Shown piece after piece: positions 345 through 22,089 of a stretch of DNA of 22,618 bases. The notes beneath the pieces are model-generated. The model had not been told where the DNA came from, made no database searches, and was given only the letters and a program-made list of their open reading frames with translations. Location: IMG/VR virus record IMGVR_UViG_3300023174_000673, positions 1 to 22,618 of that record. One strand, written 5' to 3'. Positions within the stretch are counted from its first letter, which is position 1; every line of letters starts with the position of its first letter. This DNA comes from a virus. Made by a program: the position numbers and the translations under genes.

Positions 345-625
345 ATGTCTTTTGCTGATTTAAAGAAGCAATCAAAGATGGGTTCCTTGACTGAGAAACT
401 CATTAAACAAGTTGAGAAACTCAACGAAACTGGTTCCAAGGATGATAATCGTTTTTGGAAACCTGCGATGGATAAAGGTGGAACTGGTTCTGCTGTAATC
501 CGTTTTCTTCCTGCTGCTGCTGGTTGCGAACTACCTTGGGCACAGGTTTGGTCTCACGCATTTCAAGGACCTGGTGGTTGGTTGATTGATAACTGCCTAA
601 CTACTAATAAAGGGCAATGTCCCGT
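345..625 (+). CDS. gp32: Single-stranded DNA binding protein gp32, exon 1 (join 345-625, 1809-1956, 3116-3592)
   Basis: T4-like gp32 coats single-stranded DNA during replication, recombination and repair, and recruits other replisome proteins. The three exons join in frame to 301 residues, the same length as T4 gp32 as I recall it. Exon 1 encodes residues 1-94: the basic N-terminal cooperativity segment (MSFADLKKQSK), the start of the OB fold (GSAVIRFLP) and most of the zinc subdomain. Zinc ligands are H71, C84, C92 and C95, spaced H-X12-C-X7-C-X2-C; T4 has a similar H-C-C-C set. Codon 94 (Val) is split: GT at 624-625 plus T at 1809. The Shine-Dalgarno-like CGGAGA at 333-338 selects the ATG at 345, not the one at 341. 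Without splicing, translation would stop at 632 after 95 residues, lacking C95. Confidence 0.93.
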
Positions 626-702
626 CAAATAACACAGGCGGCTTTATAAGGTAACTTATAACGAAAAACTCTGTTAATTGCTGGAAACCCTAAACGAAAA
701 TA

Positions 703-710
703 GATAAATA
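703..710 (+). promoter_or_regulatory. T4-type late promoter inside intron 1
   Basis: GATAAATA matches the T4 late promoter core TATAAATA at seven of eight positions. It lies 23 bases before the endonuclease start at 734. The spacing is nearly identical at the other late-type motifs of this window (21-24 bases at 2073, 6836 and 7587). T4 intron endonucleases are known to be expressed from late promoters inside the intron. Confidence 0.65.
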
Positions 711-733
711 GTTTGTAAACTAAACGAACTATT
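707..733 (+). promoter_or_regulatory. Hairpin covering the translation start of the intron 1 endonuclease
   Basis: AATAGTTTG (707-715) can pair with CGAACTATT (725-733), a 9-bp stem with one G-U pair. The 3' arm ends directly before the GTG start at 734. In a long transcript from the gp32 promoter the start would be occluded. A transcript starting from the late promoter (expected near 716) would lack the 5' arm. Intron 2 has the same layout. Role inferred by analogy with T4 I-TevI. Confidence 0.55.
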
Positions 734-1678
734 GTGGAAAATAAAATTTCATTGATTTCTAAAGATGGTTTTTATTGTGAACTGAATAAAAAATATTATT
801 CAACCTTGCGGGGTATGTTAAATTATCTTCGTACTCATAATATGAGTTCTGAGGATTATTATATAAAATATCTTGGAGATGTTGGTAAATGTTTAAAATG
901 CAATAAAGATACACATTTTATTAGAATTACGGAAGGATATAGAACATATTGTTCTGTGACTTGTTTATGTAAAAGTAAGGAGCACAGATTATCCATAAGT
1001 AAACGATTTGAAGGTCAAGATGAAAAAAGAAAACAGGCAATAGATAAATGTAGAGATACAAAATCTAAATGGTCTGATGAGTTTAAAAATCAATTGACCG
1101 AAAAAAGATTGAATACTTTAATTGGAAAATATGGCGAAAACTATTTCTCCGAAAAGACCAAGAAACAATGGGAACGAAGAAGTGAGGATCAAATTAAAAT
1201 TTTAGTTGATAAATCAAATCAAACTAAAATTAAAAATGGAACATATAGTCCAAATCCTTACAAAAACACATTTAGAGATTTTAAATGTGGTGAGTTTAAT
1301 TTTAGAGTTCAAGGTTATGAAGATATTACTATAGGTCTTTTATCTAAACTTATAGATTTGTCTGAGTTAAAAACTGGTAATAACGTTCCGAGAATATTTC
1401 TTACAGAACATAAAAATTATTATCCAGACATCCTTTATCGTAATCTATTAATAGAAGTAAAAAGTGAATATACTTATTATCATTTTTTGGATGAAAATAA
1501 TGCAAAACACTTATCTTCTATTGCACAAGGTTTCGGTCATATCTTTTTTATAATACATTCAAAGGATGTATTGAAAAATAGAACTTTAAAAAATGAAGAA
1601 ACTTATTTATCTATTTTACGCAAGGCAATCAGCAGCCAAGCCTCATTTGGTGAGGAAGGTTCAACGACCATCCCGTGA
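734..1678 (+). CDS. Homing endonuclease of gp32 intron 1 (zinc motif plus PD-(D/E)XK nuclease)
   Basis: A 314-residue protein inside the ribozyme, with a likely role of cutting intronless gp32 alleles so that repair copies the intron in. The N-terminal part has C53-X2-C56 and C73-X3-C77, a zinc-binding module common in phage homing endonucleases. A lysine-rich linker (about 85-170) probably contacts DNA. The nuclease motif follows: P231-D232, then E241-V242-K243-S244, the PD-X8-E-X-K arrangement of PD-(D/E)XK enzymes. It is a clear paralogue of the intron 2 protein with identical D-to-E spacing. The start is GTG, since no in-frame ATG precedes residue 28; no clear Shine-Dalgarno is visible. 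The last ~17 residues are encoded by intron core helices P4', P6 and P7, so they are probably not a functional domain. No GIY-YIG or LAGLIDADG motif is seen. Confidence 0.82.
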   Translation: MENKISLISKDGFYCELNKKYYSTLRGMLNYLRTHNMSSEDYYIKYLGDVGKCLKCNKDTHFIRITEGYRTYCSVTCLCKSKEHRLSISKRFEGQDEKRKQAIDKCRDTKSKWSDEFKNQLTEKRLNTLIGKYGENYFSEKTKKQWERRSEDQIKILVDKSNQTKIKNGTYSPNPYKNTFRDFKCGEFNFRVQGYEDITIGLLSKLIDLSELKTGNNVPRIFLTEHKNYYPDILYRNLLIEVKSEYTYYHFLDENNAKHLSSIAQGFGHIFFIIHSKDVLKNRTLKNEETYLSILRKAISSQASFGEEGSTTIP

Positions 1679-1808
1679 CTGGGAGTAGGGGAAAGTTCCC
1701 CGAAATGCAGAGACACCCAAGTGGTGTGTGATATGGTCTACTCTTATATGAAAATATAAGCAGGGAAATGTCCCGATTAGTGATTAACGATCACTAATGA
1801 ATATAAGG

Positions 1809-1956
1809 TTGTGAAGCAAATCGTGAACTATGGAATACTGGAAGTAAAGATAATCAGAATATTGTTCGTGATCGTAAGCGTAAACTTTCTTATTACGCAA
1901 ACATTTATGTAGTGAAAGATCCTGCTGCTCCTGAAAATGAAGGACGAGTGTTCCTT
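1809..1956 (+). CDS. gp32: gp32, exon 2
   Basis: The exon starts with the third base of the split Val94 codon and encodes residues 95-143, opening with C95, the fourth zinc ligand. It contains the conserved gp32 block [18 protein letters not shown], part of the DNA-binding OB fold, and [12 protein letters not shown], which in T4 gp32 reads almost the same. The exon ends with a complete Leu codon (CTT, 1954-1956). Read alone the frame would stop at the TAA just inside intron 2 (1957-1959). Confidence 0.92.
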
Positions 1957-2064
1957 TAACTTAAATTAGAGGCATATAGTAGTAATATTATATGAAAACC
2001 GAGTGAATTGCTGGAAACTCTTGTTAGGTAAACTAACTAAAACAGATTCAATGTGAAAGAAAAC

Positions 2065-2101
2065 TTTTCTTTTATAAATAGTTTTATATTATAAAAGAAA
2101 A
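2065..2101 (+). promoter_or_regulatory. Perfect 13-bp hairpin before the intron 2 endonuclease start
   Basis: TTTTCTTTTATAA (2065-2077) is the exact reverse complement of TTATAAAAGAAAA (2089-2101), leaving an 11-base loop. The 3' arm contains the purine-rich AAAAGAAAA that would serve as the weak ribosome site for the ATG at 2105. The late promoter TATAAATA (2073-2080) lies in the 5' arm and loop, so a late transcript starting near 2086 would lack the 5' arm and leave the start open. Confidence 0.7.
2073..2080 (+). promoter_or_regulatory. T4-type late promoter inside intron 2
   Basis: TATAAATA is an exact match to the T4 late promoter core. It lies 24 bases before the endonuclease ATG at 2105, inside the intron, and within the 5' arm of the 2065-2101 inverted repeat. 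Confidence 0.75.
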
Positions 2102-2104
2102 CAT

Positions 2105-3025
2105 ATGACTGAAAAATTGTATTGCGATTTAGATAAAAAATACTATTCTAAAATGGGAATAGTTAGAATAATCAAAAAATTTGGAATAGATCCAAAAGAT
2201 TATTATGATGAACATTTTAAGTCAGATACCGAAGGCATTTGTCTTAATTGTGAAAAATCTACAAAATTTACAAAATTTTCATACTATAAATTTTGTAATT
2301 GCAAATGTTCATCTCAGTATAATAAAAATACTGAAAAATTATGGAAAAATTCTTCAGAGGATCAAAAGAAAACTTATATTAATAAGATGTTAAACTCTAG
2401 ATATTTAAATACTTCTAAAGAAGATATTGAAAAAAAGAGAGTAAATACTTTACTTAAAAATACTGGTTTTGGTTCTTATTCTGAATTTGTATCAAACCAT
2501 AAGAAGGAGTGGTACAAAACATTAACTGAAGATCAGCATAATGAACTATTTGATAGAATAACTAAATCAAGAAATCAATACAAATATCATATGTATACAC
2601 TAAATGGTATACAAGTTAGAACTCAGGGATATGAAAAATATGTTCTTGATATTCTAATTAAGTATTTTGATAATACAAAAATTGAAGTTGATAGTAAAAA
2701 ATCAATAAGATACAAGGATGAAAACGGAAAAATTAGACGTTATTATCCAGATATTATAATTGATAATTTATTATTTGAAGTAAAATCTCTTTATACTTTA
2801 AAACTTCATAAAAATAATGTATTGTTAAAAATGGAAGCATCCAAAAATGCTGGATACATACCATTTTTAGTTGTATGGGAACCTAAAGAATCTGAAATGT
2901 GTGAAAATAGTTTAATAGAGACAATCAGCAGCCAAGACCTATCACATAAGGTAAGGTTCAACGACTATCCGTTTATCGGAGTAGGTTATAAGCAAATGAT
3001 AACCGAAGTGCTCGGAATCCATTAA
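2105..3025 (+). CDS. Homing endonuclease of gp32 intron 2 (zinc motif plus PD-(D/E)XK nuclease)
   Basis: A 306-residue protein, paralogous to the intron 1 endonuclease and with the same domain order. It begins LYCDLDKKYYSK, matching FYCELNKKYYST in the partner. Zinc ligands C46-X2-C49 and C64-X3-C68 follow (C66 is an extra Cys). A basic helical linker leads to the conserved RTQGYE segment and the nuclease motif P215-D216 with E225-V226-K227-S228, same spacing as in the partner. A downstream K..ASKNAGY segment also suits this nuclease type. The ATG at 2105 is chosen because it aligns with the partner N-terminus and follows the late promoter. The last ~33 residues are read from the intron core (P4' through P3'), which explains their odd composition. 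Its expected target is the intronless gp32 junction near VFL-YKF. Cleavage activity is inferred, not visible. Confidence 0.82.
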   Translation: MTEKLYCDLDKKYYSKMGIVRIIKKFGIDPKDYYDEHFKSDTEGICLNCEKSTKFTKFSYYKFCNCKCSSQYNKNTEKLWKNSSEDQKKTYINKMLNSRYLNTSKEDIEKKRVNTLLKNTGFGSYSEFVSNHKKEWYKTLTEDQHNELFDRITKSRNQYKYHMYTLNGIQVRTQGYEKYVLDILIKYFDNTKIEVDSKKSIRYKDENGKIRRYYPDIIIDNLLFEVKSLYTLKLHKNNVLLKMEASKNAGYIPFLVVWEPKESEMCENSLIETISSQDLSHKVRFNDYPFIGVGYKQMITEVLGIH

Positions 3026-3115
3026 AAATGGATTATGATATAGTCTGTTCTACTTTGAGAGGAGTAGCCGAATAAGATTCGGGATTGGTATTTGCGAACC
3101 AATCCGAACATAAAG

Positions 3116-3592
3116 TATAAGTTTGGTAAGAAAGTTTTTGATAAGATTATGGCTGCGATGCAACCAGAGTTTGATGATGAAAAACCCATTAATGCTTTTG
3201 ATTTCTGGGAAGGTGCAAACTTCAAGTTGAAGCTTCGTAAGGTAGAAGGATACTGGAACTATGATAAGTCAGAGTTTTCTGAACCTGGTCCTCTCTTGAA
3301 TGATGATGATGCTCTTGAGGAAATCTATAAGTCCATTCACGATTTGAATGAATTTACAGATGAAAAGAACTTTAAATCTTATGAAGATTTGAAGAAGCGT
3401 TTGGGATATGTTCTTGGAAATAAGAGTGCGTCTAAGCGTCAAGATCAAGAAACACTTGATGAGGAAGAAGAGTTTGTGCCAACAACAAAGAGTGAATCTA
3501 CATTCACTTCGTCCTCAAAATCTAGTTCTTCTGTTGACGAAGATGAAGACGATGATACTCTTTCTTATTTTCAAAAGTTAGCTGAAAGTTGA
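3116..3592 (+). CDS. gp32: gp32, exon 3
   Basis: Encodes residues 144-301 in frame after exon 2, opening with YKFGKKVFDKIMAAMQPEF, the conserved end of the DNA-binding core, followed by INAFDFWEGANFKLK. The C-terminal ~45 residues are a Ser-rich linker plus a strongly acidic tail (VDEDEDDDTLSYFQKLAES), the domain by which gp32 contacts replication partners and controls its own DNA binding. A TTG upstream at 3092 is in frame but lies in intron sequence, so it is not the start. The gene ends 30 bases before a terminator hairpin. Confidence 0.93.
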   Translation, partial: YKFGKKVFDKIMAAMQPEFDDEKPINAFDFWEGANFKLKLRKVEGYWNYDKSEFSEPGPLLNDDDALEEIYKSIHDLNEFTDEKNFKSYEDLKKRLGYVLGNKSASKRQDQETLDEEEEFVPTTKSESTFTSSSKSSSSVDEDEDDDTLSYFQKLAES

Positions 3593-3621
3593 TTTTCAAA
3601 ATCGACTTTTGATTACCTTTT

Positions 3622-3651
3622 CCCCCGAGAAAAATTTCGGGGGATTTTTTT
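3622..3651 (+). terminator. Rho-independent terminator of gp32
   Basis: CCCCCGA (3622-3628) pairs with TCGGGGG (3637-3643) in a seven-pair GC-rich stem with an 8-base loop, followed by A and a run of seven T. The T-run is only on the plus-strand side, so it ends the gp32 transcript and is not an obvious terminator for the converging minus-strand operon. Confidence 0.88.
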
Positions 3652-3664
3652 GTCTGTAGGGTTT

Positions 3665-4324
3665 TTATACCCCAGTAAGTCTTGGGTTATATGTTGATTT
3701 ATTTGTTTGATTAATATAATCAGATGAAGATCCATATTTCATAGAATTTTTCAAGTCACTAATAATTACTGATAGATAATCTGGTTTCAATACTCTAATT
3801 TTTCTCTTATCTTCATTTAAACTTGTTTCATATTCATAATTGGTCACTTGTTTGGTTGGATTTAATGTGACTCTACTGTAATCAGTTTTTGAATATGTAA
3901 TTGTAAAGTTTGAATCAACTTTGAGTCCAGCAGGAATTACAACTCTATTATAATTATCTAAAACTTCAGTAGTTTCGTGGTGATGTATATTTGATATATT
4001 TTCATCAGAACCATACTTTTCTAGCATGTAGTTATATAAATCATAATTACTCAATGGCCATTGTTGTCTTATGTTTGTGATGTTATTTGTATGTAAAATG
4101 ACCCAATCCAATTCTGAATTGTTATAAACTTTATTTGCAATTTGTTCTGGTCTTTCGTTGTCTAAAATTTCATAATAAACAAAAGCAGTAATGACATTAA
4201 TAATATCATTTCTAATTGCTGCTCTTTTAAATATATTTTTGACAGTAATATAGTTTTCGTTTGAATCTGAATCTGGTAAACGAGAAAGATATTGTAAATT
4301 TGGTAATTCTTTGAAATATCCCAT
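3665..4324 (-). CDS. gp53: Baseplate wedge subunit gp53
   Basis: About 219 residues against 196 in T4. gp53 joins wedge subunits around the hub and is required for baseplate completion. The diagnostic segment is in the N-terminal half: YYEILDNERPEQIANKVYNN followed by LDWVILHTNNI, matching the T4 gp53 pattern RPEELANAIYGNPQLYWVLL. The C-terminal half (about 115-219) is polar and less conserved, ending in a segment (KPDYLSVIISDLKNSM) like T4 IKIIAKSDINSFMNDL. I choose the ATG at 4324 (MGYFKELPN), which matches the family style; a TTG two codons earlier at 4330 would overlap the gp48 stop. It is the last gene of the minus-strand operon. Confidence 0.83.
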   Translation of the reverse strand: MGYFKELPNLQYLSRLPDSDSNENYITVKNIFKRAAIRNDIINVITAFVYYEILDNERPEQIANKVYNNSELDWVILHTNNITNIRQQWPLSNYDLYNYMLEKYGSDENISNIHHHETTEVLDNYNRVVIPAGLKVDSNFTITYSKTDYSRVTLNPTKQVTNYEYETSLNEDKRKIRVLKPDYLSVIISDLKNSMKYGSSSDYINQTNKSTYNPRLTGV

Positions 4325-4326
4325 TT

Positions 4327-5832
4327 TCAATAACCTACATCGTCGTTTTGTACTTGATCCAAATCACCAAGATCTCCAGATCTTGTACTAAAGATAGATG
4401 TCTGATAGTCAGTGTTATAAATTGGTTCAAGTTCTGCAAATTGCATCGTAATAGTTACAGATACTGGTTGCCCTTCGTCATAAGCAGCCCAAGTTCCTTC
4501 TGGTGCATAATTTACACTAAAATTAGTCAATGCACAGACTTTGAATTTATTCAATCCAGAAATGGGATTATTTTTTCCAGTTTTATATCTTAATTTAAAA
4601 ACATTTGGAGTTCCAAGAAAAAATGAACTTTGTCCTGCTTGTCCAGTTTGTTTTCTTGGGGACATACCTTGCTTGAAAAAACGAATAATTCTTTTTACAT
4701 TTCTTGCTTCTTTTGTACTTCTTGGACTCAAACGATAAGCAAATGTAAATTGACGAAGTTCTGGACTATTAAATAAAAGTTCCAAGTTTGAGTTTGGAAC
4801 AATTCCAAAACCTCTTGCTAAAATACTTTCCGGTGATACTTCAAATTGTGCCATTTTAAGTATTTGTGAAGAAAAAGCAGCGGAAAAAGCTCCTAGAGAT
4901 TTTGGAGAACCAACTGCAGCACCAACGACATCCTTATATATTGATAATGCTGCTCCTCCTTTTGCTGCTTGTAATATACCTAAAGGACTTTGCCCTTTTG
5001 TTAATAATTGGCCAAATCCTGCAATACCTCCTGCAACACCTCCAGCACCTAAATGTTCTGACATTTTATTTAATGCAGTTCCAGTTGCACCTGCTGTCAT
5101 TGCATTCATTTGATCAGAACCCCAAGAAACATTATTGCTGTCTGATATTCCATTTGGAATTGGAAGAATAGCTAATCCAATCAGTTCAGATAGTGCAGTA
5201 TTTCTTTGTATGTTATTTTGAATTACACTTGTTGGATTTGTAAAAATACTTTCTGCTCCTGTTGGTTGGTATCTATATTGTGATATTTCTAGTCTATCTT
5301 GTTCTGATGTAATCATATCAATTGGATATGTAAGTAATTTTGTGTCATTGAATAGTGCTTTTTCATTTGTATTTGCAAAAGCACTACCAGAAACATTAAA
5401 AGGAGTTAGTGACGGAATAGGATTCGTAATAGCTCCAAAAATAGCACCAACTTGTTGTATAATTCCTTGTGGTCCAGTTGGTGATGTTCCTCCTCCAATT
5501 TGTGTATCTTGAGATCCGGCTTTATTTTTTATAAATCCAGGAAGAACACCAGTTCCTGATGTTCCTCTTGCTTTTGTGATACTATTGGTTACATTTTCGT
5601 GAACTGTTATTCTTTCTTTTGGATCTGATATTACACCAAGGCCATTATTATTCCATACGCCATTTTCATATATTGCTACTTTTGCTGTTTGGACGCCACC
5701 AACAGTGACTATCTCATAAAGCTTTGTATTTCCATTATCTGGATCATAAGTAAGCTGAATTTTTCTTTCCCCTACTTGTAGTGGTTGTGGGGATAGTTTG
5801 TAGAAATCGTTATTTACTGGTTTTTCAGCCAT
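4327..5832 (-). CDS. gp48: Baseplate tail tube cap protein gp48
   Basis: A 501-residue protein, longer than T4 gp48 (about 364). gp48 sits on top of the hub and starts tail tube growth. The C-terminal ~170 residues carry the tube-like domain: SNLELLFNSPELRQFTFAYR, SPRSTKEARNVKRIIRFFKQ, FLGTPNVFKLRY and NFSVNYAPEGTWAAYDEGQP, then VSVTITMQFAELEPIY. This pattern is typical of T4-like gp48/gp54 and tube relatives. The middle part (about 110-330) is Gly/Ala-rich with weakly hydrophobic stretches. The ATG at 5832 directly abuts the stop of the upstream gene and the stop lies just before the gp53 ATG, so the genes are co-translated. Assignment to gp48 instead of gp54 is based on neighbourhood and length. 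Confidence 0.78.
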   Translation of the reverse strand: MAEKPVNNDFYKLSPQPLQVGERKIQLTYDPDNGNTKLYEIVTVGGVQTAKVAIYENGVWNNNGLGVISDPKERITVHENVTNSITKARGTSGTGVLPGFIKNKAGSQDTQIGGGTSPTGPQGIIQQVGAIFGAITNPIPSLTPFNVSGSAFANTNEKALFNDTKLLTYPIDMITSEQDRLEISQYRYQPTGAESIFTNPTSVIQNNIQRNTALSELIGLAILPIPNGISDSNNVSWGSDQMNAMTAGATGTALNKMSEHLGAGGVAGGIAGFGQLLTKGQSPLGILQAAKGGAALSIYKDVVGAAVGSPKSLGAFSAAFSSQILKMAQFEVSPESILARGFGIVPNSNLELLFNSPELRQFTFAYRLSPRSTKEARNVKRIIRFFKQGMSPRKQTGQAGQSSFFLGTPNVFKLRYKTGKNNPISGLNKFKVCALTNFSVNYAPEGTWAAYDEGQPVSVTITMQFAELEPIYNTDYQTSIFSTRSGDLGDLDQVQNDDVGY

Positions 5833-6348: not shown

Positions 6349-6806
6349 ATCTGAATTCCCAAATCACGTTCAGTAAAAATACGGAATTCCCAGTTTCTAT
6401 CTTTGCAATATTCACGACAAGCTTCCCATTTTGCTTGATTTACTACCCAAGTTTTAACTGAATATGCCCAAGATTTTGTTCGTTTTGGTGGATTTGTGGG
6501 TGGTTCTTTTAGATCTTTTGCTGGTTTGATTTCTACGACTACTATTCTTATATTTGCATCTTTATCTTTATATTTAAGTTTCATATCTGGAAAATATCTA
6601 TGAACTTTATTATCTATTGGTGATACATAAGGAACCCAAAACTCTTCACTTTGATATGAGATGACATTTTCTGTTAAATCACAATATTGAAACATCTTTA
6701 ATTCATAAGAAGATCTATAAATAATATTTGTTGGATCTCCGTTATATTTCTGTGGATTTTTTGGTTTGAACTTTCCTTGTTTATAGTTTTTGCTCTGACC
6801 AGACAT
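6345..6806 (-). CDS. gp4: Head completion protein gp4 (nuclease-fold)
   Basis: 153 residues, close to T4 gp4 (150). gp4 acts at the portal end of filled heads before tail joining. Visible family features: KFKPKNPQKYNGDPTNIIYRSSYELKMF at the N-terminus, VPYVSPIDNKVHRYFPDMKL in the middle and VVVEIKPAK after it. The order E (in SSYELK), D (in FPDMKL) and E-X-K (VEIKP) resembles a TnsA/PD-(D/E)XK nuclease core, as proposed for this family. It is the first gene of the minus-strand operon, with a late-type promoter 22 bases upstream of its ATG (6829-6836 minus). Its stop overlaps the next start. Confidence 0.88.
   Translation of the reverse strand: MSGQSKNYKQGKFKPKNPQKYNGDPTNIIYRSSYELKMFQYCDLTENVISYQSEEFWVPYVSPIDNKVHRYFPDMKLKYKDKDANIRIVVVEIKPAKDLKEPPTNPPKRTKSWAYSVKTWVVNQAKWEACREYCKDRNWEFRIFTERDLGIQI
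6716..6723 (+). promoter_or_regulatory. Possible late promoter for the plus-strand tail operon
   Basis: TATAAATA, an exact late core match on the plus strand, 115 bases before the gene at 6839 but inside gp4 coding (antisense). The short divergent gap (6807-6838) shows no plus-strand match, so this could drive the tail operon. The distance is unlike the 12-24 bases seen elsewhere, so chance is a real alternative. Confidence 0.3.
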
Positions 6807-6828: not shown

Positions 6829-6836
6829 TATTTATC
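6829..6836 (-). promoter_or_regulatory. Late promoter of the gp4-gp48-gp53 operon
   Basis: On the minus strand this reads GATAAATA, seven of eight T4 late core bases, in the 32-base gap between divergent genes. Its distance to the gp4 ATG is 22 bases, matching the other late-type motifs in the window. Confidence 0.68.
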
Positions 6837-6838
6837 AA

Positions 6839-7588
6839 ATGTCTCCAGCTCCTAATAGGGGAAAGCCAAATATAGGACCTTTATATGTTAGGATGACTAC
6901 TCCATCTCCAGGAGGAGTGCTTCCTGGAGCAAGAGATATATTTGGAAAACTTTCAGTTACGAGTCAATTTAAAGTATCTCTTCAGCTTAATAATGCAGAT
7001 AGAGAACTGATGGGTTGGTTGAGAACATGTGAATTGACTAATGATGTGAGAGTTGCAAATACATTTGATTTCTTTTGTTCCGAAACTGCACTTCCTGGTG
7101 CAACATTTGATATGGCAGAAGAAAGTGGAAGTCGTCAAGGAATTATAGAAAGATTTCCAACAAGAAGAATATATCCAGATTTTACAATGACTTTCTATGT
7201 TGATTATGATTATAAATTGATTCGTTTATTTGAAGAATGGATGAATTATATTAATCCAATTTATGATTCATCGGGAATAGTTCCTCCAGATGCAAGAGGA
7301 CAAGGAAATGCAAAAGATAGTCCAAACTTTTTTAGATTTAAGTATCCCGATAGTTATAAAAGAATTATTTCGGTTACTAAGTTTGAAAGAGATTTTTTAG
7401 AAAATCCAAATAAAAAAGGTGGAATAACTTTATCTCCTCCTTCATTGACTTATAGGATGATTGATTCATTTCCTACAAATATTACTGCAATTCCAGTTAC
7501 TTATGAAGGAAGTACGATTACAAAAACAACAGTATCTTTTAATTACACAAGATATGTGATTGAAAAACATAATGGGTCCAGGACATAA
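6839..7588 (+). CDS. Tail-tube-fold baseplate protein (gp54/tube initiator-like)
   Basis: 249 residues, with a pattern typical of phage tail tube and tube-initiator proteins: FDFFCSETALPGATFDMAE, IIERFPTRRIYPDFTMTFYV, LIRLFEEWMNYI with NPIYD, and near the end FPTNITAIPVTYEGSTITKT followed by VSFNYTRYVI. The LPG (position ~84) and 'DFTMTFYVD' strand are the repeated signature of this fold. In T4 the equivalent step is gp54, which with gp48 templates tube assembly on the baseplate. I cannot exclude a different tube-like hub component. First gene of the plus-strand operon, divergent from gp4. Confidence 0.62.
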   Translation: MSPAPNRGKPNIGPLYVRMTTPSPGGVLPGARDIFGKLSVTSQFKVSLQLNNADRELMGWLRTCELTNDVRVANTFDFFCSETALPGATFDMAEESGSRQGIIERFPTRRIYPDFTMTFYVDYDYKLIRLFEEWMNYINPIYDSSGIVPPDARGQGNAKDSPNFFRFKYPDSYKRIISVTKFERDFLENPNKKGGITLSPPSLTYRMIDSFPTNITAIPVTYEGSTITKTTVSFNYTRYVIEKHNGSRT

Positions 7589-7594
7589 TAAATA
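7587..7594 (+). promoter_or_regulatory. Late promoter before gp26
   Basis: AATAAATA overlaps the end of the preceding gene and lies 21 bases before the gp26 ATG at 7616. It fits the NATAAATA form and the spacing of the window's other late motifs. Confidence 0.6.
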
Positions 7595-20269: not shown

Positions 20270-22086
20270 TGTTTATATTAAAAAGACTTGCCGGGGCGTT
20301 TGTAAAAATTTATAAACCCACAATCACATCACCAACAGCAAGTCAAATTGTAGGTAGTAGAACACCAACAATTACATCAAGTGCTTTTTCCAAATATGGA
20401 AATATAACTCACGCATCAAGCGACTGGCAAGTTTCTGATGCTTTAGATTTTAATACAATTCGTTGGTCATCAAGTAATGATACATCAAATAAGACATCAA
20501 TCACTTCTAGTGACTTGGCAGGTGGAGATCGTTATGTAAGAGTTAGATATAAATCAAATACTGGAATTTATTCTGATTGGTCTGATGCTGTTCTATTTAC
20601 TTCTCCTTGGGCAACTGGCACTGGTGTTTTGGTAAGTTCTACAGTATTTGAACTTTCTACATCAGCACCTGTAACCATACAATCGGGAACTTATCGCATT
20701 ACTCTTTGGGGTGGCGGCGGCGGCGGTGCAGCAGGTGGAGGAAATGGTCCACGACCAGGTGGAGGTGCTGGGTCTGTATCAAAAGATGTAACATATCCAT
20801 CTCCAACATCAATTTCATTTACCATTGGTACGAAAGGTGGTTATGGAAGTGAAAATATAGGTGGTGGATGGGGTGGTTCCCCAGGTGGAGGAAATGGTGG
20901 AAATGCTGGAGGTTATCAGAAATGGTGTGGTGGAGGCGGCGGCGGATCTTCAAGTGCAATAGGTATGATTGCTGCCGGTGGTGGAGGTTCTGGTGCTGAT
21001 GGTGGTGGCCCTGGTGGTCCTGGTGGATCTGGTAATAGTTCTGGTGGATCTGGCGGCGGTGGTGGAGAAGGGGGACAACCAGGAGATGGTTACGGCGGCG
21101 GCGGTGGTGGATCTAATGGATCTAATCAACCTCAAGGTGGACCAGGAGGCGGCGGTTCTAATGGTGGAAGTTATTCATCTGGGTATAGTTCTCCAGGAAC
21201 TGTAGCAGCAAATCGTTATTATTCTACAAGTAGCTCTTATTATTATGGAGATGCTGATACTAATGGTGGTGCAAGAATTCAAAAAATTGCAGCACAAGTT
21301 ACACCAGTAGTTTCTATTACAAGCAATCTTGCATCAACATCAAGTTCAACTGCCGGAAGTAGTTTATCTTTTAGTATTACTGCTACTGATACTGCAAATA
21401 ATGATAGTACAGTTGCGTATCAGTGGTATGTGAGCACTGATGGTGGAAGCAATTATTCTGCAATTTCTGGGCAAAATGCACAAACATTAACCAGATATCA
21501 ACCATTTTATTATAGTGATAATGGGCATAAAATTAAGTGTAGGGCAACAGTTACTAATTCTGTCGGCAGTAACTATACAGATTCTACTGTTTGTACTTTA
21601 ACAGTTGCACGAAATTATGATTGTAGCGGTGCAACTGTCACAGGAACACTAAACCTTTCTAGCTCAGGTCCAAAACCATCCACTAATGGTAATGGAGATG
21701 ATACCTGGGGAACTTGGTCTCCTGGATATGATGATATTTGTGAAATTAATGGAAGTACAAATAGTTTTAATGTTAAGGGTAGATTTTGTAATTGGCAAGC
21801 AAAATTAGAACTAAGAATTACAAGGTCTACAGACGGAACTCGTCGTCATTGGGGAGATCAAACACGAAGTGGTACTCAAGACAATTATCAAAATTTTCAA
21901 TTAAATGCAAATGGTGGTGGATGGGATCCAGGAAATGATGGTATTCCGACATTTCGTTTGATGATAGTTGATAGTGATACTCAATGTCAAAATGGTAATC
22001 AAGACATTGGTGCAGAGCAAGAAACTACTGTTACATTGAGTTATTCGTATAAAAGAAGAACCTATTACTACGATAGTCGTCCATAA
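20269..22086 (+). CDS. Glycine-rich tail adhesin with FnIII/Ig-like domains
   Basis: 605 residues. Residues ~15-112 look like a fibronectin/Ig-type domain (PTITSPTASQIVGSRTPTIT ... YVRVRYKSNTGIYSDWSDAV). Residues ~140-300 are a glycine-rich domain opening ITLWGGGGGGAAGGG, with runs of Gly broken by Asn, Ser, Pro and a hydrophobic SSAIGMIAAGGGGSG. Such domains pack as polyglycine-II helices in adhesins like phage S16 gp38 and define receptor binding. Residues ~325-432 are another Ig-like domain (SSLSFSITATD..YQWYVSTDGGSNYSAISGQ). The C-terminal ~170 residues (WGTWSPGYDDICEINGSTNS) are unrecognised, with Cys pairs. Likely the host-recognition tip. Start ATG at 20269 overlaps the previous stop (TAATG). 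Confidence 0.75.
   Translation: MFILKRLAGAFVKIYKPTITSPTASQIVGSRTPTITSSAFSKYGNITHASSDWQVSDALDFNTIRWSSSNDTSNKTSITSSDLAGGDRYVRVRYKSNTGIYSDWSDAVLFTSPWATGTGVLVSSTVFELSTSAPVTIQSGTYRITLWGGGGGGAAGGGNGPRPGGGAGSVSKDVTYPSPTSISFTIGTKGGYGSENIGGGWGGSPGGGNGGNAGGYQKWCGGGGGGSSSAIGMIAAGGGGSGADGGGPGGPGGSGNSSGGSGGGGGEGGQPGDGYGGGGGGSNGSNQPQGGPGGGGSNGGSYSSGYSSPGTVAANRYYSTSSSYYYGDADTNGGARIQKIAAQVTPVVSITSNLASTSSSTAGSSLSFSITATDTANNDSTVAYQWYVSTDGGSNYSAISGQNAQTLTRYQPFYYSDNGHKIKCRATVTNSVGSNYTDSTVCTLTVARNYDCSGATVTGTLNLSSSGPKPSTNGNGDDTWGTWSPGYDDICEINGSTNSFNVKGRFCNWQAKLELRITRSTDGTRRHWGDQTRSGTQDNYQNFQLNANGGGWDPGNDGIPTFRLMIVDSDTQCQNGNQDIGAEQETTVTLSYSYKRRTYYYDSRP
20707..21175 (+). repeat. GGN/GGC glycine codon-rich low-complexity tract
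   Basis: Repeated GGTGG, GGCGGCGG and GGTGGA motifs, much richer in G than the surrounding AT-rich genome. Several GGCGGCGGCGG-type runs (20709, 20936, 21093) encode polyglycine. Such tracts recombine and slip easily, which suits a variable adhesin. Confidence 0.85.
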
Positions 22087-22089
22087 ATA
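22082..22089 (+). promoter_or_regulatory. Late promoter before the last gene of the operon
   Basis: CATAAATA (NATAAATA form) overlaps the stop of the adhesin gene and lies 12 bases before the ATG at 22102. The spacing to the start is shorter than at the other sites (21-24), so the leader would be very short. Confidence 0.5.

Follow-up and report, generated by a model that had tools for sequence, protein, structure and literature searches.

How can a replication gene that appears in three broken pieces still yield one protein? The question is raised by gp32, which encodes the single-stranded-DNA-binding protein and is an essential core replication gene of T4-like phages, in the 22,618-nucleotide (nt) stretch analyzed here (IMG/VR record IMGVR_UViG_3300023174_000673, hereafter the window), which derives from a T4-like cyanobacterial virus (cyanophage). 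Judged from its sequence, this gp32 is almost certainly split by two group I introns, each containing the gene of a probable DNA-cutting enzyme, and spliced to one mRNA. Both genes encode proteins of the Pfam family DUF7487 and are referred to below as homing endonuclease genes (HEG 1 and HEG 2).

Exons and splice points of gp32

Joining positions 345–625, 1809–1956 and 3116–3592 gives a 906-nt reading frame for a 301-residue gp32 with a terminal stop and none internal, as a sequence-only reading of the locus had proposed from splicing at U625/G1808 and U1956/G3115. Pfam gp32 matches lie on both outer fragments, and T4 gp32 (PDB entry 8gme) aligns with the joined protein over its full length (E 2e-56). 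In this alignment the first junction falls within the CPVC motif and the second between ENEG(R/K)VFL and YKFGKK.

At both junctions the DNA alone permits a one-base slide, the base after the 3′ junction being that which completes the alternative. U625/G1808 and U1956/G3115 were chosen because the group I rule places a U before the 5′ site and a G at the intron end. Apart from this slide the splice solution is fixed, because intronless near relatives have unbroken exon sequence across both junctions. Relatives were found by scanning IMG/VR with the joined protein and keeping the best 80 loci, in each of which gp32 was matched nearly full-length in one piece. The closest intronless gp32 among them shows 98% protein identity, and relatives with empty sites at both junctions are 96–98% identical. 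In the intronless loci examined (L017–L028), the exons abut without an extra base at either junction, just where the sequence-only reading had placed them. Removal of intron 2 at the homologous points in four divergent phages likewise gives complete gp32 proteins of 304–322 residues. The intron boundaries are thereby directly supported.

Group I structure of the introns

An Infernal covariance search, the check by which the earlier reading could have been refuted, matched the Rfam model RF00028 to intron 1 (49.3 bits, E 1.3e-13) and intron 2 (43.8 bits, E 5.9e-12), both under the gathering cut-off of 50 bits. The three introns of T4 scored 105.3, 40.3, and 35.7 bits in this search (two of three under the cut-off), S-PM2 gave one match of 87.8 bits, and the intron 2 allele of contig L005 reached 54.6 bits, above the cut-off. 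Intronless sister contigs gave no RF00028 match. Marginal Rfam matches such as those to PYLIS_3, snR78, and CRISPR-DR15 were rejected as chance, all being far below their own cut-offs.

The pairings P1, P2, P3, P4, P7, and P8 named previously are all present in both introns, together with P5, P6a, P7.1, P7.2, P9, and P9.1 (Table 1). Both end in an omega-G and have, at the 5′ splice site, a U·G wobble within P1; this wobble is retained in 8/8 intron 2 alleles. With the HEG removed, both introns fold unconstrained into P1, P2, P3, P4, P5, P6, P7.1, P7.2, P8, P9, and P9.1 (z −3.7 for intron 1, −4.6 for intron 2). The P7 pseudoknot was identified by sequence, and its strands, GACCAU/AUGGUC in intron 1 and GACUAU/AUAGUC in intron 2, differ in a compensated manner. 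Over eight intron 2 alleles, the named P1–P9.1 structure including P7 is 97.2% paired, compared with 29–44% for slid partners. Two-sided compensatory changes occur in eight intron 2 pairs (P2, P3, P6, P8, P9, and P9.1), a number reached in 0 of 500 shuffles; together with the pairing, this covariation supports the core structure of intron 2 directly. Covariation was counted on intron 2 alleles only, because intron 1 and intron 2 were aligned too poorly by MAFFT in P7.1–P8.

In both introns GUA joins P7.1 and P7.2. Since this linkage is a criterion for subgroup IA2 (PMC3428280), both were assigned to it. The introns had been described as paralogous, which agrees with cores about 76% identical over 65 nt around P4–P7 and HEG proteins 32% identical.

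Table 1. Coordinates of the interrupted gp32 gene, its introns and their elements in the window
Feature	Position	Strand	Remarks
gp32 exon 1	345–625	+	Codons 1–93 plus two bases; Pfam gp32; 3′ end inside C-P-V-C zinc-motif codons (alignment with T4 gp32 CPVC); empty site in L017–L027
Intron 1, group I (IA2)	626–1808	+	1183 nt; terminal omega-G1808; RF00028 match at 1539–1760
Intron 1 P1	622–626 with 637–641	+	U625·G wobble at splice site; pairing checked
Intron 1 P10	633–637 with 3′ exon 1809–1813	+	CACAG/UUGUG; exon copy read directly from the sequence, a script having put the 3′ strand at another TTGTG
Intron 1 core, 5′ half	669–691	+	P3 669–674 (with 1707–1712), P4 678–683 (with 1630–1635)
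Intron 1 P5	689–691 with 1623–1625	+	HEG in P5 loop; 3′ strand read from sequence; minimum free energy fold of HEG-less intron
Late-promoter-like GATAAATA	703–710	+	Before HEG 1
HEG 1 hairpin	707–715/725–733	+	Directly before GTG start; −8.5 kcal/mol, z −4.3
HEG 1	734–1678	+	314 residues, GTG start; Pfam DUF7487 E 6.9e-10; Cys4 and E..PD..ExK
Intron 1 core, 3′ half	1630–1798	+	P4′, P6a 1641–1645/1651–1655, P7 1666–1671/1733–1738, P7.1, P7.2 1688–1693/1696–1701, P3′ 1707–1712, P8 1713–1717/1723–1727, P9 1743–1749/1754–1760, P9.1 1776–1784/1790–1798
gp32 exon 2	1809–1956	+	First 135 nt 99% identical to intronless L017
Intron 2, group I (IA2)	1957–3115	+	1159 nt; terminal omega-G3115; RF00028 match at 2853–3067
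Intron 2, 5′ half	1953–2021	+	P1 1953–1959/1966–1972 (U1956·G), P2 1973–1981/1986–1994, P3 1999–2003 (with 3011–3015), P4 2008–2013 (with 2926–2931)
Intron 2 P5	2018–2021 with 2917–2920	+	HEG in P5 loop; coordinates read from sequence
HEG 2 hairpin	2065–2077/2089–2101	+	Covers HEG 2 leader; z −2.2
Late promoter TATAAATA	2073–2080	+	Before HEG 2; overlaps hairpin 5′ arm
HEG 2	2105–3025	+	306 residues; Pfam DUF7487 E 6.7e-17; Cys4 and E177..PD216..E225xK227
Intron 2 core, 3′ half	2926–3105	+	P4′, P6a 2937–2940/2949–2952, P7 2963–2968/3040–3045, P7.1 2969–2971/2977–2979, P7.2 2984–2989/2999–3004, P3′ 3011–3015, P8 3016–3022/3028–3034, P9 3050–3055/3062–3067, P9.1 3082–3088/3099–3105
gp32 exon 3	3116–3592	+	Includes acidic C-terminal tail; 98.7% identical to L017; Pfam gp32

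DUF7487 proteins and their leaders

The 3′ end of HEG 1 overlaps the ribozyme core of intron 1, and that of HEG 2 overlaps P4′ to P8 of intron 2. Four cysteines and the residues E177, P215-D216, and E225-x-K227 (HEG 2 numbering) are invariant in the HEG 1 and HEG 2 family. Judged from ratios of nonsynonymous to synonymous substitution rates (dN/dS) of 0.10–0.20 between HEG 2 and its relatives, the HEG 2 family is under purifying selection. DUF7487 has no function assigned in Pfam and is mentioned in no paper found by our literature search. Weak Pfam matches to TnsA-N and PDDEXK_3 were seen; searches of NCBIfam and PHROGs gave nothing usable for the HEG products, and phmmer against the PDB gave no match for HEG 2. 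A free-standing DUF7487 relative, annotated "endonuclease," lies beside the major head gene in L138. In Dickeya phage JA33 (L137, record positions 128541–131647), an unannotated relative is encoded on the opposite strand between two coding sequences for a "putative DNA repair helicase." Free-standing and between-halves locations are as expected for homing enzymes. From motifs and context, the DUF7487 proteins are most likely PD-(D/E)xK-type homing endonucleases. Inteins were considered and rejected, the HEGs being bounded by stops and not fused in frame with gp32.

The sequences GATAAATA and TATAAATA lie 24–25 nt upstream of the HEG 1 and HEG 2 starts, and each leader can form a hairpin. The HEG 2 hairpin is retained in relatives, where its arms change together (UUUUC/GAAAA vs. 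UGUUC/GAACA). A strong Shine–Dalgarno match was found for neither HEG 1 nor HEG 2. The late promoter reported in cyanomyoviruses is NATAAATA (PMC2984593). In the window, 5 of 12 sites for this heptamer (ATAAATA) precede a correctly oriented gene start by no more than 40 nt, against 0.2 expected, and no other heptamer of the same composition has more than two sites before gene starts; it is only this placement, and not the total count in the window, that exceeds chance. In T4, such a layout before I-TevI makes the ribosome site accessible on late transcripts but masks it on the long early ones (PMC2988022), and by analogy a similar timing logic may apply to HEG 1 and HEG 2. Elsewhere in the window, NATAAATA is also found at 6829–6835 (minus strand), 7588–7594, and 22083–22089, 13–23 nt before the gene starts at 6806 (minus strand), 7607, and 22102.

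Natural alleles, rival explanations and known systems

The allele survey drew on relatives of the two introns and on the 80 gp32 loci that matched best. Besides the window, intron 2 occupies its site in 13 IMG/VR contigs and intron 1 in two. One contig (L003/L015) has both, with >99.8% identity to the window in introns and HEGs. Intron 2 alone, at the same gp32 site, is found in 12 contigs (L004–L014 and L127), some of which end within it, and its HEG is mostly deleted in L012/L013 and L127. Intron 1 alone is found in L016; most of its HEG is deleted and the intron is otherwise 100% identical to that of the window, whereas phage sequence further out is only about 72–88% identical. The gp32 genes of the sequenced isolates searched yielded no intron of this type. 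The sequence-only reading had called two introns in gp32 unusual; this holds insofar as no report of an intron in gp32 was found in the open-licence literature searched, and has to be qualified by the recurrence of intron 2 at one site.

Between the window and other hosts, third-codon-position identity is 68–76% for HEG 2 and 41–51% for gp32 of the same phages; synonymous divergence (dS) is 0.5–1.0 for the HEG, while for gp32 it ranges from 1.4 to saturated. Because HEG 2 is less diverged than gp32, the intron copies must be younger than the host-gene split and have moved between gp32 lineages. Compared with intronless L017, the window has six differences within the final 30 nt of exon 2, flanked by 88 nt on the 5′ side and 87 nt on the 3′ side that are free of differences, and four within the final 30 nt of exon 1. 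Such patches just 5′ of the insertion sites are what conversion after a nearby cut would leave; selection on P1 pairing could explain at most their last few bases. These footprints of mobility indicate recent horizontal spread, exon co-conversion, and loss of the HEG in some alleles.

For splicing, the specificity of cleavage, and the expression switch, we infer the following. Each intron would be excised from the pre-mRNA through two guanosine-initiated transesterifications, with attack after U625 and U1956 and ligation after G1808 and G3115 giving a continuous gp32 mRNA. The DUF7487 protein would cleave gp32 in a co-infecting phage that lacks the intron, and double-strand-break repair would then copy the intron and short flanking exon patches into the cut allele. 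With the late promoter placed at the leader hairpin, the HEG would not be expressed from the long gp32 transcript, which would keep ribosomes from running into the folding core, and its product would be made late like T4 I-TevI.

Several results weigh against this account. Both RF00028 scores fall short of the gathering cut-off, and neither intron was listed by an Rfam cmscan of the window, whether gathering or relaxed thresholds were applied, probably because an HEG separates P5 from P5′; the RF00028 matches begin inside the HEGs, so that the model would not place the true 5′ half. P10 is clear in intron 1 but weak in intron 2, and the covariation test is confined to alleles among which P4 and P7 are invariant. 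The AlphaFold model of HEG 2 is modest, with a predicted local distance difference test score (pLDDT) of 62 and a C-terminal nuclease domain, at about 80, as its only confident region; its nearest PDB folds, which are nucleases or kin to the PD-(D/E)xK fold (ERCC4/XPF type and Can2), are weak matches (best E 0.02). The low covariance scores would suit genuine group I introns of which one or both no longer splice, so that this allele, a dead end or minority genome, would yield truncated gp32. We regard this as very improbable given that all core helices are intact, the same double-intron allele recurs in a second contig, and the exons remain open and encode an essential protein near-identical to that of intronless relatives.

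Less credible still, to the point of being negligible, is that assembly or sequencing errors produced the breaks, or that gp32 is split by free-standing HEG insertions with no intron involved. Although the introns are repeats, and contigs L004 and L127 end inside them, identical junctions occur in independent contigs; the exact empty sites and the full group I core flanking each HEG led us to reject free-standing insertion. Somewhat more plausible, though unlikely, is that the introns splice and the DUF7487 proteins act mainly as maturases or domesticated regulators. Second roles are possible for intron-encoded proteins, and I-TevI also represses its own promoter (PMC2988022). However, the PD..ExK nuclease residues are conserved, the intron is younger than the host-gene split, and its flanks bear conversion patches, while the persistence of introns with most of the HEG deleted (L016, L012, and L127) argues against a required maturase. 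With homing endonucleases thus the preferred reading of the two proteins, there is perhaps an even chance that DUF7487 is an unrecognized homing-endonuclease family (Cys4 plus PD-(D/E)xK) that has spread group I introns among cyanophage gp32 genes and is timed by a late-promoter-at-hairpin switch like that of T4's unrelated endonucleases.

The rest of the window is T4-like by PHROGs (baseplate wedge, tail tube cap, DNA end protector, head closure, tail tube, and baseplate hub), and the isolate genes nearest to its gp32 are cyanophage genes. Between gp32 and the convergent baseplate gene, an inverted repeat, CCCCCGAGAAAAATTTCGGGGG, followed by a T run (3623–3651) resembles an intrinsic terminator.

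Introns of T4-like phages have been described in td, nrdB, nrdD, and gene 43 (PMC2988022, PMC2993671), and those of cyanophages in psbA and a T7-like DNA polymerase gene (PMC3428280). The T4 td, nrdD, and nrdB introns (I-TevI, I-TevII, and I-TevIII) share with the window a group I core with P7.1/P7.2 in a T4-like phage, an intron-borne HEG whose 3′ end lies in the core, HEG-truncated derivatives, and, ahead of the HEG, a late promoter with a leader hairpin (PMC2988022, PMC2993671). The window differs in its host gene, in having two introns in one short gene, in placing the HEG in the P5 loop, and in an HEG that is PD-(D/E)xK-like (DUF7487) rather than GIY-YIG or HNH. The I-PfoP3I intron in the DNA polymerase gene of cyanophage Pf-WMP3 likewise belongs to group IA2, bears an HEG and interrupts an essential replication gene (PMC3428280), but involves a T7-like phage, an HNH nicking enzyme, one intron, and an open reading frame (ORF) starting in P6a. 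Several introns per phage gene are already known: DNA polymerase and terminase genes of Bastillevirinae carry two or three group I introns each (PMC11878797), though in Bacillus phages, in other genes, and with other HEG families; the main text of that paper mentions neither gp32 nor single-stranded DNA. T4 homing itself uses gp32 (PMC2988022), which by analogy would make the target gene apt and proves nothing. The type of element is thus well known, and gp32 as home for an intron pair is unreported in the literature searched.

The psbA introns of S-PM2 and relatives occur in the same phage group, and the 5′ core motif of intron 2 is found in psbA introns of other contigs. The S-PM2-type endonuclease F-CphI is free-standing, has an Endo VII motif and is encoded outside the intron (PMC6083498, PMC3428280), whereas the window's are encoded inside each intron. 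The L006 contig, which carries gp32 intron 2, also contains a psbA gene (G005:C1:46744-48009, seen in L097) with two further RF00028 matches (84 and 53 bits); in one of them an HNH-like ORF lies between the psbA exons. The psbA genes of L110 (about 2600–4740, minus strand) and L128 apparently have three group I cores each, and their introns share the 5′ core motif AAAACCRAGTGAATTGCTGGAAA with gp32 intron 2. Short HEG-less group I introns with the same motif occur in more GC-rich phages (L120, L123, and L124), apparently in a different gene, the upstream frame of which contains CPKCH.

In phages of this kind, gp32 will come out of annotation pipelines in fragments or not at all. For DUF7487 the locus offers a likely function, and the promoter-and-hairpin timing of phage intron endonucleases would extend to another nuclease family. 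An essential T4 core replication gene emerges as a recurrent intron target in environmental cyanophages, and the natural series of alleles (no intron, either alone, both, HEG deleted) allows gain, homing, co-conversion, and HEG loss to be read in one gene.

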